64,000 nucleotides of DNA, from positions 682,001 to 746,000 of the forward strand of contig NZ_AP023179.1 of NCBI RefSeq assembly GCF_013426915.1, given 5' to 3'. The stretch comes from Paraburkholderia sp. PGU19 (lineage in GTDB: Bacteria > Pseudomonadota > Gammaproteobacteria > Burkholderiales > Burkholderiaceae). The position numbers were made by a program, and so were the translations under genes. This document shows positions 18,732 to 52,092 of this stretch, piece by piece; the stretch's first letter is position 1, and each line of letters starts with the position of its first letter. The notes beneath the pieces are model-generated. The model was not told the origin of the DNA and did not search any database. It was given only the letters and a program-made list of their open reading frames with translations.

Positions 18732-20276
18732 ATGAATTACGTCATCGGCGTCGATATCGGCACGCAGAGCACGAAGGCCGTGCTCGTCGACGAGAGCGGC
18801 GCAATCGTTGCCCAGCATTCGAGCGGCTATCACCCGGACACACCCAAACCCTTGTGGGCCGAACAATGGCCGACCGTGTGGATGAAGGCGGTGGTCGAAT
18901 GCATTTCGCGCTGTGTGGCGAAGGCGCGCGAAGCGGGCGTCGCTTCGAATGCGATCAAGTCCGTGTGCGTGAGCAGTCTGTATGGCGGCTCGGGCATTCC
19001 CGTCGATAGCGACATGAAGCCGCTGTATCCGTGCCTGATCTGGATGGACCGGCGCGCGACGGCGCAGGTCGAAGCGGTGCGGGCGACCGTCGATCTCGAA
19101 CGTTTGTATGCGATCACGGGCAACGGCGTCGACAGCTACTACGGTTATACGAAGATGCTGTGGCTGCGCGACAACGAGCCGAACGTGTGGGCGAACACAC
19201 GCTTCTTCCTGCCGCCGAATGCCTATGTGATCTATCTGCTGACAGGCGAAGTGGCTGTCGATCACAGTTCGGCGGGCAATATCGGCGGCGTATACGACAT
19301 TGCGAAGCGCGACTGGTCGGACGAGGCGCTCGACATGCTTGGCATTCCCGCGACGATGATGCCAGAGCATCTGGTCGAATCGTCGGATGTAGTGGGTGGG
19401 TTGCTGTCGCAATGGACGGAGCAGCTTGGACTCGAAGCGGGCACGTCGATCGTCGCGGGCGGTGTCGATGCGGCGATGGCCACATATGCGGCGGGTGTCA
19501 CGCGCGCGGGCCAGCATGTCGCGATGATCGGCACGAGCATGTGCTGGGGCTATATCAATCAGAGCGTCGATGCGCATCATGGCCTTATCAGCATGCCGCA
19601 CGTGTTCAACGGGTTGCAGGATATCTATGTGTTCGGCGGCGCGATCACGGCGGGCGCGTCGGTGACGTGGTATCGCGAGCAGTTCTGCCATGCGGAAATT
19701 GAGGCGGCGAAGGCATTGCCGAATGGTGACGCGCATCAACTGCTCGAGGAAGACGCCGCGCAGTTACCGGCGGGTTCGGATGGCGTGATGTTCCTGCCGT
19801 ATCTGATGGGCGAGCGCAGCCCTGTGTGGGACGCGAAGGCGAGCGGCGCGTTTGTCGGGTTGAGCCTGTATCACACGCGGGCGCATCTGTATCGCGCGGT
19901 ACTCGAAGGCGTTGCGTACGCGTTGCAGCACAACATCGTCGCGGGACGCAAGGGCGCGAAGTCACTCGACGACAAGCTGATCGTGGTTGGCGGCGCGGCG
20001 CATTCGGACCTGTGGATGTCGATCATCGCGGACATTACCGGCTTTCCCGTCTACACGATTGAGCAGGACGTGGAAGCGGCGATGGGTGCGGCATTGCTCG
20101 CCGCTTACGGCACGAAGCTGATTTCGCAGGAAACGGCGCGCGGCGGCTGGGTGAAGCTGATCGAGCGTGCGAAGCCCGATCCTGCGCGGCAGGCGGTGTA
20201 CGCGGAGCGCTTCGGTATCTATACGGATCTGTATCCGGCGTTGAAGCCGGTCATGCATCGGCTGCAAGCGAAATGA
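18732..20276 (+). CDS. FGGY-family carbohydrate kinase
   Basis: A 514-residue sugar kinase. It opens with YVIGVDIGTQSTKAVLVDE, has GMGTSMCWG-like phosphate loop residues (MIGTSMCWGY), the catalytic Asp in AGGVDAAMATYAAG and the C-terminal VVGGAAHSDLWMSIIAD. It lacks the SGQMHG block of xylulokinase; the equivalent region reads SSLYGGSGIPVD, so the substrate differs from that of the xylB product. I chose the ATG at 18732, with CGGAGAC upstream, over one at 18690. The stop overlaps the next start as ATGA. It likely phosphorylates the ketose made by the neighbouring dehydrogenases. Confidence 0.88.
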   Translation: MNYVIGVDIGTQSTKAVLVDESGAIVAQHSSGYHPDTPKPLWAEQWPTVWMKAVVECISRCVAKAREAGVASNAIKSVCVSSLYGGSGIPVDSDMKPLYPCLIWMDRRATAQVEAVRATVDLERLYAITGNGVDSYYGYTKMLWLRDNEPNVWANTRFFLPPNAYVIYLLTGEVAVDHSSAGNIGGVYDIAKRDWSDEALDMLGIPATMMPEHLVESSDVVGGLLSQWTEQLGLEAGTSIVAGGVDAAMATYAAGVTRAGQHVAMIGTSMCWGYINQSVDAHHGLISMPHVFNGLQDIYVFGGAITAGASVTWYREQFCHAEIEAAKALPNGDAHQLLEEDAAQLPAGSDGVMFLPYLMGERSPVWDAKASGAFVGLSLYHTRAHLYRAVLEGVAYALQHNIVAGRKGAKSLDDKLIVVGGAAHSDLWMSIIADITGFPVYTIEQDVEAAMGAALLAAYGTKLISQETARGGWVKLIERAKPDPARQAVYAERFGIYTDLYPALKPVMHRLQAK

Positions 20277-21010
20277 AGACGACTTTCGATTTTTCAGGAC
20301 GCTCGATACTCGTGACGGGGGCATCGAGCGGCATTGGCCGCGTGACTGTTGAGATGTTGTGCGCTAGCGGCGCGCAGGTTGTTGCGGCGGCGCGCAATGT
20401 TGGCGAACTTGCTCGTCTTGCGGAGGAGACGGGGTGTGAGCCGCTGGTGCTCGATGTCGGTGATGAAGCTGCGATTGATGATGCGCTTGCGTCGCTCGAT
20501 GTGTTCGATGGGCTCGTGAATTGTGCAGGCACGGCGATGCTTGAGCGTGCGATTGATACGACTGCTGCGAGCTTTGATTCTGTGATGGACGTTAATGCTC
20601 GTGGCGCGATACTGGTTGCGCGGCATGTGGCGCGGGCGATGATCGATGCTAAGCGCGCAGGCAGTATCGTTAATGTTTCTAGCCAGGCGGCGCTTGTTGG
20701 GCTTGAGGATCATTTGAGTTATTGCGCTTCTAAAGCTGCTATGGATGCTATTACGCGGGTTTTGTGTGTCGAGCTTGGGGGGTATGGGATTCGCGTGAAT
20801 AGCGTTAATCCGACTGTCACGCTGACGCCGATGGCGGTGAAGGCATGGAGCGAGCCTTCCAAGCGCGATCCTGCTCTCCAGGCTATTCCGCTTAAGCGGT
20901 TCGCTGAACCGCGGGAAGTGGCTGAGCCGATTTTGTTTTTGCTTAGTGATGCGGCTTCTATGATCACTGGCGTGACTTTGCCAATCGATGGCGGGTATAC
21001 CGCAAGGTGA
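20273..21010 (+). CDS. SDR-family oxidoreductase, L-xylulose reductase-like
   Basis: A 245-residue short-chain dehydrogenase with VTGASSGIG (cofactor loop), NCAG, a Ser in NVSSQA and YCASK (catalytic Tyr-x3-Lys). The stretch RVNSVNPTVTLTPMAVKAW and the overall order strongly recall dicarbonyl/L-xylulose reductases, which interconvert L-xylulose and xylitol. It is translationally coupled to the kinase. Codon use drifts to T-ending codons in the 3' two-thirds, unlike the upstream genes, toward the adjacent long repeat. Function as a pentitol/ketose oxidoreductase is inferred from family and context. Confidence 0.85.
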   Translation: MKTTFDFSGRSILVTGASSGIGRVTVEMLCASGAQVVAAARNVGELARLAEETGCEPLVLDVGDEAAIDDALASLDVFDGLVNCAGTAMLERAIDTTAASFDSVMDVNARGAILVARHVARAMIDAKRAGSIVNVSSQAALVGLEDHLSYCASKAAMDAITRVLCVELGGYGIRVNSVNPTVTLTPMAVKAWSEPSKRDPALQAIPLKRFAEPREVAEPILFLLSDAASMITGVTLPIDGGYTAR

Positions 21011-21011
21011 T

Positions 21012-21763
21012 TTTTTTGGGTTTGGTTTTGTCTGCGACGCTGGGTGGGTTTGCTTGTGCGTTCGCTGGCATCCGCGATGCGTTATCTCGCTTCAAGCGTC
21101 GCCCCTGTGCGGGGCGGCACCTACTTTTCTTTGCCGCCGCAAAGAAAAGTAGGCAAAAGAAAGCGGCTCACACCGCCAGTTCTTGTGTTTGCCTGAGGGC
21201 CCTCAAAGGTTCTTACACTTCACACGGCAACCACGTGACCCATGTCCGTTGCCAGCGCTCTTGCCGTGCGCCTCACCCGCTTCATGCGCCCGCGTTGCAG
21301 CACGCCGTGCCAGATAGTCCGCCGCCGCCCAGGTGGCAAACTGTGTGTAGGCGTTCGCACCATAAACGCATCACTCCGGACCGATAGCGCACGCGTACCA
21401 CCCTGTAAGAGCGCCACGCTATACGACGCGACAACCTACACACAGTTTGCCACCTGGGCGGCAGAAACCATTCGCTGCCGCTAGCCGTTGTGCAGGTGTT
21501 TGAAGTGGGTGAGGCGCTTATTCGAAGCGTTGGCAACACGCGCGAACAAGGACGTTGCCGTGTGAGGCGTAAGACCCGTTGGGGGCCCTCAGGCAAGAAG
21601 AAATGTTGGCGGTGTTAGCCGCTTTCTTTTGCCTACTTTTCTTTGCGGCGGCAAAGAAAAGTAGGTGCCGCCCCGCACAGGGGCGACGCTTGAAGCACGC
21701 TAACGCATCGCGGATGCCAGCAAAAGTACCAGCAAACCAACCCAGCCCCCGCAAGACAAAAAA
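21012..21763. repeat. Long inverted-repeat element, copy A
   Basis: A non-coding element between convergent genes. The two ~200-bp outer arms are inverted copies. Each holds the hairpin CCTACTTTTCTTTGC-N4-GCAAAGAAAAGTAGG (21120-21153 and 21632-21665) flanked by conserved GGGGCGGCA and AAAGAAAGCGGC blocks. Further in are GGGCCCTCA, ACACGGCAAC and CGCCTCACCCGCTTC blocks and their inverted copies. The innermost arms are a perfect 28-bp inverted repeat (21324-21351 and 21435-21462) around an 83-bp asymmetric core. Relative to copies B and C the core is inverted. No transposase or convincing gene is inside. Confidence 0.9.
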
Positions 21764-21765
21764 AC

Positions 21766-22701
21766 CTAGAGCAAAGTCCTCACATGCCAAAGCTCAGGAA
21801 ACAGCACAACATCAAGCATCTTACGCAGATAAGGCGCACCTGCAGTCCCACCAGTCCCTTGCTTAAACCCAATAATCCGTTCAACGGTAGTCACATGCCG
21901 AAACCGCCACTGCCGAAAGGCATCCTCAAGATCGACGAGTTCTTCAGCCATCTCATACAGCTCCCAATGCTGGGAAGGATTCCGATAAACCTCAAGCCAG
22001 GCGGCTTCAACCGAAGCATCATGCTGAGTAGGCAGCGTCCAATCTCGCTCCAGCCGTGAGGCATCAATAGCAAACCCTCGCCGCGCCAACAAACGAACCA
22101 CTTCGTCATAAAACGAAGGCGCCTCGAGTGCCGCTTTCACTTCGGCAAACACATCGGCATGATGCGCATGAGGCTTGAGCATCTGCTCATTCTTATTCCC
22201 GAGCATAAACTCCAGCTCACGATACTGATAAGACTGAAACCCCGACGAACTCCCAAGAAACGGACGCATCGACGTATATTCAGAAGGCGTCATCGTCGAC
22301 AACACGTTCCACGCCTGCACAAGCTGCTCAAGAATCCGCGACACACGCGCAAGCATCTTGAACGCCGGCGGCAACTCATCACGATGCACTGAAGCAAGTG
22401 CGGCACGCAATTCATACAGCGCGAGCTTCATCCACAACTCGCTCGTCTGATGTTGAATGATGAACAGCATCTCGTTGTGATCCGGCGACAACGGATGCTG
22501 CGCATGCAAAATCGAACCGAGCGACAGATAGTCGCCATAGCTCATCGACTTCGAGAAATCGAGCTGCGCGTCGTGCCAGCCTTCGCCCTCATTCACAGCC
22601 ATGTGCGACGCGTGCGTCTCGCGTGGCGTCGCCGTGCCGCCATGCCCGAACGGGCAGCCTTGCGCGGGCTTGTCTTCCGTCATCTTCATATGGTCGGTCA
22701 T
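21766..22701 (-). CDS. kynA: Tryptophan 2,3-dioxygenase
   Basis: Haem enzyme of 311 residues opening the indole ring of L-tryptophan to N-formylkynurenine. Family blocks are [36 protein letters not shown] (haem-side His) and [19 protein letters not shown]. The C-terminus [18 protein letters not shown] is complete. GAGGAG precedes the ATG. It is last in the kynB-kynU-kynA operon, 10 bp after kynU. The 3' end abuts repeat copy A. Regulation by the divergent Lrp-type protein and tryptophan/kynurenine is inferred from known Burkholderia and Pseudomonas kyn operons. Confidence 0.96.
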
Positions 22702-25322: not shown

Positions 25323-25329
25323 CGGCGCC

Positions 25330-25354
25330 GAGGCGGGCGGAAAAAAGCCGCCTC
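25330..25354. terminator. Hairpin between kynR and the flavin reductase gene
   Basis: GAGGCGG/CCGCCTC stem with a GCGGAAAAAAG loop, in the 60-bp gap between convergent genes. The 3' T tract is weak, so this is a probable rather than certain bidirectional terminator. Confidence 0.5.
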
Positions 25355-25382
25355 TCCAGCCGCGCGGGAAGGCGCCGGCCTG

Positions 25383-34152: not shown

Positions 34153-34913
34153 GGGTTTTTTTTGTGTCTGCGACGCTGGGTGGTTGGCTTTAGCTTTGCG
34201 CTGGCATCCGCGTTTCGTTATCTGGCTTCACGCGTCGCCCCTGTGCGGGGCGGCACCTACTTTTCTTTGCCGCCGCAAAGAAAAGTAGGCAAAAGAAAGC
34301 GGCTCACACCGCCAACTCTTCTTCCTGCCTGAGGGCCCCCAACGGGTCCTACGCTTCACACGGCAACGTATCTGTTCGCGAGCGTTGCCAACGCTTCGAA
34401 TGAACGCCTCACCCGCTTCGAATACCCGTACCCGGGCAAGCGGCAGCGCATGGTATGTGCCGCCCAGGTGGCAAACTGTGTGTAGGTTGTCGCGTCGTAT
34501 AGGGTGGCGCTCTTACAGGCTCTTACAGGGTGGCACGCGTGTGCTATCGGTCCGGAGTGAGGCGTGTGCAGTACTACGGCCTACACACAGTTTGCCACCT
34601 GGGCGGCTGGGGGCCATCTGGCACGGCATGATGCGGCGCGGGTGCGTGAAGCGGGTGAGGCGCACCGCAAGAGCGCTGGCAACGAACGTGGGTCACGTGA
34701 TTGCCGTGTGAAGTGTAGGACCCGTTGGGGGCCCTCAGGCAAATACAAGAACTGGCGGTGTGAGCCGCTTTCTTTTGCCTACTTTTCTTTGCGGCGGCAA
34801 AGAAAAGTAGGTGCCGCCCCGCACAGGGGCAACGTGTGAAGCTCGATAACAAATCGCGGATGCCAGCGCAAACACAAGCAAACCACCCAGCGTCGCAGAC
34901 AAAAAACCCCCAA
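34153..34913. repeat. Long inverted-repeat element, copy B
   Basis: Same architecture as copy A, but with the core in the opposite orientation. Outer hairpins at 34256-34289 and 34778-34811, perfect 28-bp inner arms at 34459-34486 and 34580-34607, and a 93-bp core. The core holds a tandem duplication of GCTCTTACAG (34509-34518 and 34519-34528) that is single in the other copies. It fills the gap between the convergent EamA and amidase genes. Short open frames inside are repeat sequence, with no support as genes. Confidence 0.9.
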
Positions 34914-49829: not shown

Positions 49830-50588
49830 TTACTTCGGCTGCATGCGGATCGCGCCGTCCAGACGGATCACTTCGCCGTTGAGCATCGGGTTATCGAAGA
49901 TCTGCTTGACGAGCATCGCGTACTCGTTGGGTTTGCCGAGGCGCGGCGGGAACGGCACCATTGCGCCGAGCGCGTCCTGCACTTCTTGCGGCATGCCGAG
50001 CAGCATCGGCGTTTCGAAGATGCCTGGCGCAATCGTCATCACGCGAATCGCGCTGCGCGACAGGTCGCGCGCGATCGGCAGCGTCATGCCCGCGACGCCC
50101 GCCTTCGACGCCGCATACGCGGCCTGGCCGATCTGTCCGTCGAACGCCGCGACGGAAGCCGTATTGACGATCACGCCGCGCTCGCCGAGCGCATTGGGTT
50201 CGAGTTTCGCCATTTCAGCGGCCGCGAGGCGAATCATGTTGAACGTGCCGACGAGGTTGATCGACACCGTGCGCGCGAACGAGTGCAGCGGATGCGGGCC
50301 GTCCTTGCCGACCGTCTTCATCGCCGGCGCGACGCCCGCGCAATTGACCAGGCCGCGCAGTGCGCCGAGCTTCGTCGCGGCCTCGACGGCGAGCACGGCA
50401 TCGTCTTCGCGGCTGACGTCGCACTTGACGAACACGCCGCCGAGTTCCTGCGCGAGCGCGGTGCCCGTTTCGTGGTTCAGATCCGCGAGCACGACCTTGC
50501 CGCCGTTCTGCGCGAACAGGCGCGCCGTCGCGGCGCCCAGACCGGACGCGCCGCCCGTGATCAGAAACACGTTGTCCTTGATGTCCAT
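49830..50588 (-). CDS. SDR-family NAD-dependent 3-hydroxyacyl-CoA dehydrogenase-like protein
   Basis: A 252-residue short-chain dehydrogenase: [18 protein letters not shown] (NAD loop), LADLNHETG (acidic residue favouring NAD), NCAGVAPA, Ser in [17 protein letters not shown] (Tyr-x3-Lys) and [10 protein letters not shown]. The sequence resembles the type-10 17beta-HSD / short-chain 3-hydroxyacyl-CoA dehydrogenase branch. Repeat copy C lies upstream of its start. Confidence 0.9.
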
Positions 50589-50678
50589 GTCTTCTCCTTG
50601 ATGGATGCGTTGATCGCGTGATTGGAATAGTTGTCGCTGGACGATTTTAACGGGTCGCTCTTGTGCGTCAAACCGCGC

Positions 50679-51410
50679 GGGTGGTTGGGGTTTGCTAGTG
50701 TTTTGTTTTCGCTGGCATCCGCGATTCGTTAGCGTACTTCACGCGTTGCCCCTGTGCGGGGCGGCACCTACTTTTCTTTGCCGCCGCAAAGAAAAGTAGG
50801 CAAAAGAAAGCGGCTCACACCGCCAGTTCTTGTATTTGCCTGAGGGCCCCCAGCGGTTCTTATCCTTCACACGGCAACTTCTCAGTTCCCGCTCGTTGCC
50901 AACGCTGCGAATTAACGCCTCACCCGCTTCAATCACCCGTAGCACAGCAGGAGGCAGCGAATCGTATGCGCCGCCCAGGTGGTGTACTGTGTGTTGGTTG
51001 TCGCGTCGTATGCGTTAGCGTTCTTGCAGGGTGGGGCGCATGCGCGATCGGTCTGGAGTGGTGCGTGTGAAGTACAGGAAACCTGCACACAGTACACCAC
51101 CTGGGCGGCGGTGGGCTGTCTGGCGCGGCATGCTGTTATGAGGGAGTGTGAAACGGGTGAGGCGCACATTCAGAGCGCTGGCAACGAGCACGAATGACGT
51201 GATTGCCGTGTGAAGCGTAAGAACCTGTGGGGGCCCTCAGGCAGTAACAAGAGTTGGCGGTGTGAGCCGCTTTCTTTTGCCTACTTTTCTTTGCGGCGGC
51301 AAAGAAAAGTAGGTGCCGCCCCGCACAGGGGCGACGCGTGAAGTACGCTAACAAATCGCGGATGCCGGCGAAAACAAAAGCAAACCACCCAGCATCGCAA
51401 GACAAAAAAG
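50679..51410. repeat. Long inverted-repeat element, copy C
   Basis: Third copy, core oriented as copy B. Outer hairpins at 50767-50800 and 51280-51313 are identical to those in A and B. Inner arms at 50970-50997 and 51080-51107 differ from A and B: CAAAC/GTTTG there is TGTAC/GTACA here, so three base pairs have changed on both sides. One T:T mismatch and one wobble pair lie at the core end. The core is 82 bp. Unlike A and B it lies between two genes on the same strand, downstream of adk. Confidence 0.9.
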
Positions 51411-51411
51411 C

Positions 51412-52092
<681 letters not shown>

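Follow-up and report, generated by a model that had tools for sequence, protein, structure and literature searches.

An old, dispersed, multi-copy palindrome without genes of its own is found in the genome of Paraburkholderia sp. PGU19 (G000; 11.25 Mb in 5 contigs), and the sequences on both sides of its copies bear a polar footprint, in which cytosine on the strand reading toward the element gives way to thymine. The old, derived C>T direction of this change is firm. Three copies, here called A, B and C, lie in the window, i.e., the whole stretch of 64,000 nucleotides that was analysed. We suggest, at a little short of even confidence, that the palindrome is broken time and again, that 3'-ended strands are thereby laid bare and suffer damage to their cytosines, and that repair of the breaks flips the cores of the element and mixes its outer arms.

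Architecture of the palindrome and probable exchange between its arms

The sequence-only reading had described three copies of a nested inverted repeat; their positions, outer hairpins, mid blocks, arms and core all stand (Table 1), each copy measuring 0.73-0.76 kb, but the total is not three, as the genome carries roughly 125-135 copies. At the centre of each is an asymmetric core, about 80-95 bp long, set between paired inner arms of 28 bp, which are borne out as perfect in A and B; each copy also has long arms that are imperfect and a local outer hairpin on either side. Half-sites of the outer hairpin (CTACTTTTCTTTGC / GCAAAGAAAAGTAG) number 12 in the window, where chance would give 0.16. 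Genome-wide the outer hairpin occurs 252 times at up to three mismatches, and the inner arm gives 133+135 matches; the reversed patterns of hairpin and inner arm, used as a control, give 0 matches. We collected 84 distinct copies with a full core, of which 80 were aligned and four with IS insertions were left out. The consensus of the aligned copies is a single long palindrome with matches of 0.66-0.76 kb, in which variation is found mainly in the mid arms, the inner arms and core being conserved and the outer module almost invariant. Within the three window copies, copy A has an ORF of 126 aa, and no other ORF reaches 120 aa.

Table 1. Positions in the window of the palindrome copies, their parts and the associated flanks
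Feature	Position	Strand	Remark
Copy A	21012..21763	+	Core orientation taken as +; flanked by two convergent genes
Copy A, left outer hairpin	21121..21152	.	
Copy A, left inner 28-bp arm	21324..21351	+	
Copy A, asymmetric core	21352..21434	+	In some orthologues of other copies, core orientation differs
Copy A, right inner 28-bp arm	21435..21462	-	Perfect match to left arm
Copy A, right outer hairpin	21633..21664	.	
Copy A, right end	21655..21761	+	RF02421 Bp1_684 match (Rfam search)
Empty site in G000	25323..25382	.	Orthologous gap in G067 holds a private copy with private polar flank changes
Copy B	34153..34913	-	Core opposite to A; convergent genes either side; core flipped in G066 and G067 orthologues
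Copy B, left outer hairpin	34257..34288	.	
Copy B, left inner arm	34459..34486	+	
Copy B, right inner arm	34580..34607	-	
Copy B, right outer hairpin	34779..34810	.	
Copy C, left flank	50080..50680	+	Derived C>T 22/173 vs G>A 5/151 on + strand (600 bp)
Copy C	50679..51410	-	Between an SDR-type gene directed away from it and adenylate kinase directed toward it
Copy C, left outer hairpin	50768..50799	.	
Copy C, left inner arm	50970..50997	+	TGT allele and one unmatched change
Copy C, right inner arm	51082..51109	-	TGT allele and one unmatched change
Copy C, right outer hairpin	51281..51312	.	
Copy C, right flank, adenylate kinase gene	51412..52077	-	Derived G>A 27/169 vs C>T 6/176 on + strand (665 bp)

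An autonomous full-length relative of the element was sought, and the longer copies that were read (L068, L073, L080) carry inserted IS-like genes. In three of the four interrupted copies an IS of about 1.13 kb sits at the identical base just past the outer hairpin (L073:2165, L080:2040, L077:2132), L077 sharing the insert junction of L073 and L080, with AGG on both sides of these insertions; the fourth such copy is L074. From the reading of its ORF in L073 and L080 we take this IS to be IS30-like, and it seems to target the palindromic element. In another copy (L068:2369-3985, about G000:C1 1727368-1728984) some 1.5 kb lies inside the core, between the inner arms, and encodes by our reading a transposase-like ORF of about 470 aa.

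All changes in the inner arms of copy C had been described as matched between left and right, and this had been taken to point to selection for, or repair toward, a folded structure. The CAA to TGT change is indeed present in both arms, but two further differences in the same arms are unmatched. The TGT allele is also carried by the copy C orthologues of two related genomes (G066 and G077), and hence would most simply represent one inherited event. Among the 80 aligned copies the inner arms are perfect on both sides in 40, show a matched variant in 2, one of which is copy C itself, and have only unmatched changes in 38. Further, across the 118 arm pairs variable on both sides, Watson-Crick pairing stands at 0.479 versus 0.453 (sd 0.004) when right partners are permuted among copies, an excess of 2.6 points that is beyond chance but tiny. 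The left and right arms thus vary almost independently, and selection on pairing of the long stem is rejected as the main force.

For repair toward symmetry, the other possibility named in the sequence-only reading, the support is indirect. On the one hand, at many pairs of the outer arms the left and right sides draw on the same alleles, and every combination of them occurs (e.g., pair 192/607 with GC in 28 copies, GG in 19, CC in 17 and CG in 16), and two of 14 orthologous copies, namely copy B and the copy at C1:1496315, have the core one way round in G000 and the other way in G066. Within the window, the core of copy A lies opposite to those of B and C, and because of this A and C align at only 0.71 identity in the window direction. 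On the other hand, about 90 bp beside the inner arms resist free mixing, in that they hold fixed non-pairing differences in register with the core (e.g., pairs 239-254, with GA at 244/555 in 51 copies), and therefore exchange seems to act outside this stretch. Comparison between species, with one copy from each and two from G000, finds the left arms of G119, G133 and Caballeronia NK8 at 0.62-0.71 identity to those of G000, against 0.62-0.66 when shuffled, and the elements themselves 78-82% self-complementary (71% in P. caribensis). By inspection, the local outer hairpin also shows paired differences between species: CTACTTCTC/GAGAAGTAG in G133, GTTAC/GTAAC in B. cepacia, and one base fewer on both sides in Caballeronia NK8. 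In these alignments the symmetry of the palindrome is maintained while its sequence turns over between species; recombination between arms would account for both the core flips and the persistent symmetry without selection on within-copy pairing.

Distribution and genomic setting

Searches of the genome and its relatives with the core and arms extended the family well beyond the window. The outer hairpin, at up to two mismatches, is present in 59 of 117 genomes of the genus (the own genome included) with 1 to 365 matches each. The inner core was detected in 4 of 59 genomes searched for it (G000, G001, G020 and, in short pieces only, G005), a sample that excluded G066, G067 and G077. Among the matches listed, holders of the element include Burkholderia sp. 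Ac-20365 and Paraburkholderia sp. Tr-20389. Additionally, 19 plasmid records of Paraburkholderia, Caballeronia and Burkholderia match, six of which, from P. largidicola, P. caribensis and P. sp. 22B1P, cover at least 80% of the query; the phage records searched with the element gave no match. Comparison of G000 with G066 shows that the 14 G000 copies with an orthologue identified by their flanks are filled in both, so the spread is mostly old, and one G066 copy is absent from G000. Movement of the element is old and slow. Copies A-C hold the same addresses in relatives that are about 5-13% divergent in sequence, with A collapsed in G001: its orthologue there (within L252) retains only the outer arms, joined at a GCCCC hairpin, which amounts to an internal palindrome deletion.

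The copies tend to lie at the ends of genes. A gene was called in 136 flanks, and in 102 of them it turns its 3' end to the element, as compared with 310 of 628 in element-free gaps (p=1e-9); the 56 copies called on both sides comprise 27 with convergent, 26 with co-directional and 3 with divergent neighbours; copy A, for example, lies between convergent genes for an SDR oxidoreductase and a tryptophan 2,3-dioxygenase. Stop codons are often a few bases from the T-rich end of the element: the stop is 76-93 bp from the edge marker in 20 of the 102 genes reading toward it, and in the window copies the marker is 89-100 bp from the adjoining stops.

Filled and empty orthologous gaps, a comparison that the sequence-only reading had named as informative, could both be found. 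At the adenylate kinase site of copy C the element is present in 5 and the site empty in 25 of 30 genomes, those with the best of 58 matches. Judged by eye over 120 bp, an A-run with a GC-hairpin terminator is present in 22 of the 25 empty sites and in none of the five filled ones. The former gap is likewise replaced at the private copy of G067, in the gap at 25.3 kb of the window (Table 1), and for a copy present in G066 and G001 the corresponding G000 gap carries a terminator-like hairpin. At these three sites with empty relatives, the element has replaced the old gap together with a terminator-like hairpin. Empty sites thus exist, yet the old gap is replaced at them, and no target-site duplication was recognised. 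A putative side role of the element as a two-way transcription terminator is plausible. On another contig of the genome (G000:C4:655295-655915) lies a stretch 84% identical to the adenylate kinase gene.

The polar footprint in the flanks

Composition was measured in the 138 of 168 flanks of the 84 copies that had an exact edge marker (30 were dropped, and 2 more lacked a gene call). Read 5' to 3' toward the element, C makes up 0.308 of the bases at 900-1200 bp and 0.192 at 0-50 bp, while T on the same strand rises from 0.186 to 0.333 over the same distances. The polarity is the same beside genes reading toward the element (102) and away from it (34). In 54 of 57 copies GC skew is positive on both sides, as is TA skew in 48 of 57, and the mean GC skews of the two flanks are 0.200 and 0.205. 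The gradient is repeated in Ac-20365 (70 flanks), Tr-20389 (25) and G066 (29), and also in G119 (15) and G133 (21), where the elements share little beyond the outer module with those of G000; G020, with one flank only, was left out of the interpretation. Inside the arms the inward strand is instead C-rich (GC skew -0.23 to -0.28), i.e., the footprint halts at the element.

The codon usage of the neighbouring genes is altered accordingly. In the 102 genes reading toward the element, the C-ending fraction of NNY codons falls from 0.754 at 300-450 codons from the stop to 0.308 in the last 17, and NNR codons remain G-ending (0.82 to 0.90), slightly more so near the element. In the genes reading away, of which 28 were used because six of the 34 calls overlapped the marker and were kept only in the composition by orientation, it is the G-ending fraction of NNR codons that is reduced, standing at 0.787 for 200-300 codons and at 0.457 for the first 17, NNY codons being mostly C-ending throughout (0.84, 0.89, 0.75). 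The loss of C-ending codons is present in all neighbouring-base contexts, with none marked. In contrast, 310 element-free gene 3' ends (82 of them convergent) lack such a gradient, the last 50 bp of the convergent ones having C at 0.290 and T at 0.160, in a control set that was called on normal codon usage, which favours ordinary genes, and that pools orthologous stretches of several relatives. A caller trained on normal usage failed near the elements, and another caller was used for the flank genes. The two genes adjoining copy A (window 20273-21010 and 21766-22701) were missed by the codon-model caller, so altered is their usage.

The direction of the changes can be read at sites with empty relatives. 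With three empty-site outgroups to polarise them, the two flanks at the adenylate kinase site (Table 1) together give polar C>T at 49/342 versus 11/327 for the opposite strand (p=5e-7). Since both neighbouring genes at this site lie on one strand, the polarity goes with the element rather than with transcription. In the outermost bins of the two flanks the sign is reversed, with C>T at 3/70 versus G>A at 7/69 on the left, and 18/130 versus 8/136 on the right. At the private element of G067, private polar C>T changes number 21/101 versus 2/125 (p=2e-6). Polar C>G is clear only at this element (10/101 versus 3/125), the adenylate kinase site giving 17/342 versus 10/327, and among recent singletons C>G is mixed or reversed (8 polar versus 35 anti at 0-300 bp; 13 versus 30 in the G000 and G066 tips).

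Recent changes point the same way for C>T. Singletons in four-species alignments, obtained for 11 of 16 flanks tried (five were dropped for want of four-species coverage), show polar C>T at 262/2937 versus 169/3900 within 1.1 kb, and 33/512 versus 31/547 beyond. In the cleanly rooted tips, G000 and G066, the polar C>T singletons are 92/5874 versus 58/7800 (p=6e-6), and for copies A-C the six-genome singletons are 87/4106 versus 53/5909 within 600 bp; G001 is reversed in this last set, with fewer polar than anti changes. Singleton changes of T>C, too, are more frequent than those of A>G (153/9192 versus 81/7356 near the element, 18/1228 versus 9/1144 far from it; 49/4596 versus 19/3678 in the G000 and G066 tips). 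A part of the recent C>T excess may therefore be due to pyrimidine sites being freer to change, and these counts fall short of proving that C is still being lost in one direction. It is nevertheless likely that polar C>T change continues today, and a stronger phase of mutation following insertion is possible.

Possible origins of the footprint and comparison with known systems

The geometry of the footprint offers the main clue to its origin. On each side the marked strand has its 3' end toward the element, and it is therefore the strand that resection of a two-ended break would leave single. Further, both sides are marked, which argues against a one-way fork stall, since this would mark one side per copy. 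A footprint on the 3'-ended strand, on both sides and independent of transcription, is what a fragile site would be expected to leave. We envisage the long inverted repeat as a natural fragile site, which would fold or stall replication and be broken repeatedly; resection on both sides would then leave the 3'-ended strand single, and cytosines on it would be damaged and read as T. Homologous repair would restore the locus, and the same repair could flip the core and mix the outer-arm alleles, preserving the symmetry without selection for pairing within a copy. Convergent repair synthesis would yield an equal polarity and is counted within the same model. The G001 copy reduced to its outer arms is counted in favour of breakage. 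Against breakage stands the C-rich inward strand within the arms; a central break would lead one to expect this only if arms that are folded or converted were shielded.

In Escherichia coli, an SbcCD break at a palindrome followed by RecBCD processing and sister repair would expose the very strand that bears the footprint. RecB (TIGR00609) is above cut-off in 115 of 117 genomes, and canonical SbcD (TIGR00619) in 11 of 117, including G067 and G018 and excluding G066, G001 and G077, each of which has many copies; in G000 the SbcD profile search gave a best score of 56.8 bits, partial and below cut-off. In G067 both SbcD and the footprint are present. Canonical SbcD, the known palindrome nuclease, is ruled out as the general cause, being mostly absent from high-copy genomes. 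Loss of the nuclease as the explanation for high copy number fares no better, with SbcD in 2 of 10 genomes having at least 90 hairpins and in 9 of the 107 others, i.e., no clear association. The absence of SbcD may all the same be the reason why long palindromes are tolerated.

One could instead posit a single burst at insertion, when resection and error-prone filling of the target gap accompanied the replacement of the target and left a footprint that has mostly faded since. This would fit the replacement of the former gap at the three sites discussed above and the largest excess being that at the private element of G067, and it is also in line with recent singletons being raised in both pyrimidine directions; on account of the raised T>C, we weight the breakage reading lower and the insertion burst higher. 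However, singletons beside copies that have long been shared still have a polar C>T excess of about twofold, which extends to 1.1 kb and not beyond, and the six-genome counts for A-C agree; we regard the burst as unlikely, though deserving of real weight.

It is less probable again that the element is a MITE-like passenger whose outer hairpins are cut in trans by a dedicated enzyme yet to be recognised, e.g., a transposase or a nuclease of the homing type, with the footprint left by repair. The near-invariance of the outer hairpin module across 80 copies, its presence in elements with otherwise unlike arms, and the start of the footprint directly outside it would all be understandable on these terms. 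Such an enzyme was not found, however; the three Y1_Tnp matches in the genome (L287-L289), which were inspected for a cognate RAYT, have none of eight element motifs in their loci, and the copies hardly move, given the 14 of 14 sites filled in both G000 and G066.

That the element is a structured RNA or two-way terminator under selection for pairing, with flanks made different by transcription into it, strikes us as doubtful. The concentration of copies at gene 3' ends, the missing terminator-like hairpins where copies sit, and the listing of the end of the element as an sRNA in Rfam speak for such a role, but the near-independent variation of the arms within a copy does not, and the polarity is unchanged beside genes reading away and flips across the element at the adenylate kinase site, so transcription fails on orientation as the cause of the skew. 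Recombination signals of the Chi type would need to be located on the toward-reading strand, the one marked here, but selection for such oriented G/T-rich motifs, or ordinary gene-end composition in place of mutation, is very improbable, given that the change occurs at synonymous sites in all neighbouring-base contexts and that ordinary gene ends lack the gradient.

The flanks seem to hold a record of break processing, from which one can tell the strand that was single, its reach of about 1 kb and the outcome of the lesions. If the breakage reading is right, comparative genomics could be used to measure the fragility of palindromes, the length of resection and the errors of repair under natural conditions. 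Long palindromes are regarded as unstable in bacteria, and about 125-135 of them in one genome run against that expectation. More broadly, and more tentatively, the copies could be dispersed natural fragile sites, i.e., giant palindromes that break repeatedly at fixed addresses, lay down kilobase-scale strand-polar gradients, keep their symmetry by repair and rewrite the codon usage of neighbouring gene ends, as a bacterial counterpart of strand-coordinated break-induced mutation. In practical terms, the elements distort codon usage and skew plots in their vicinity and mislead gene callers, and automatic annotation there may be unreliable.

The earlier statement that the element matches no described family has to be qualified. 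The right end of copy A matches RF02421 over 107 bp at 48 bits (cut-off 44), the sole match above gathering threshold in the window, while copy B, with 42.1 and 34.6 bits at its two ends, stays below that cut-off. This family, Bp1_684, corresponds to the Burkholderia sRNA candidate Bp1_Cand684_SIPHT (PMC3521395). It is about 113 nt long and represents a single arm, whereas the element has two such ends inverted around about 500 bp of further palindrome; its ends are part of a 0.7-kb palindrome rather than a stand-alone short RNA of about 113 nt. A single arm-like hairpin lies between aceF and lpdA in a Burkholderia cepacia plasmid record (L313:2925-3036; RF02421 at 118.8 bits) and is perhaps an ancestral solo form.

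Among interspersed repeats, the RAYT-moved REP, BIME and REPIN sequences resemble the element in being intergenic, in high copy number and with hairpins in inverted pairs, but the REP units are 20-40 bp (PMC3733652), as opposed to 0.7 kb here. By our reading the hairpin module, with GTAG beside a GC-rich hairpin, is also a REP-like feature. The text of PMC3733652 contains no mention of Burkholderia, and the same holds for that of PMC2267715. Mobilisation by a RAYT is not supported, the genome having no hairpin-flanked Y1_Tnp gene. Compared with MITE-like repeats such as ERIC, NEMIS and RU (PMC2229807, PMC10969869, PMC2759123), no pair of terminal repeat and target duplication was recognised for the element. 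The ERIC, NEMIS and RU repeats are about 100-200 bp long, and we know of no flanking mutation gradient for any of them. They are likewise non-coding, symmetric, foldable and dispersed between genes.

Experimental parallels are the long palindromes cut by SbcCD in E. coli (PMC4125073, PMC6061781, PMC8386832); those are engineered and single, unlike the element described here, which is natural, dispersed, long-lived and mostly found without canonical SbcD. In kataegis, described for eukaryotic cells with deaminases (PMC4052342), mutations cluster at cytosines of single-stranded DNA, for instance at resected ends; the footprint of the element, by contrast, is bacterial, has accumulated over evolutionary time and has no marked neighbouring-base context. 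In the open-access literature searched, we recognised no description of the element or its flank footprint, other than the sRNA paper for the end module. Thus, interspersed palindromic repeats are known as such, and it is the size, the copy number and the footprint of the present element that are, as far as we have seen, new.
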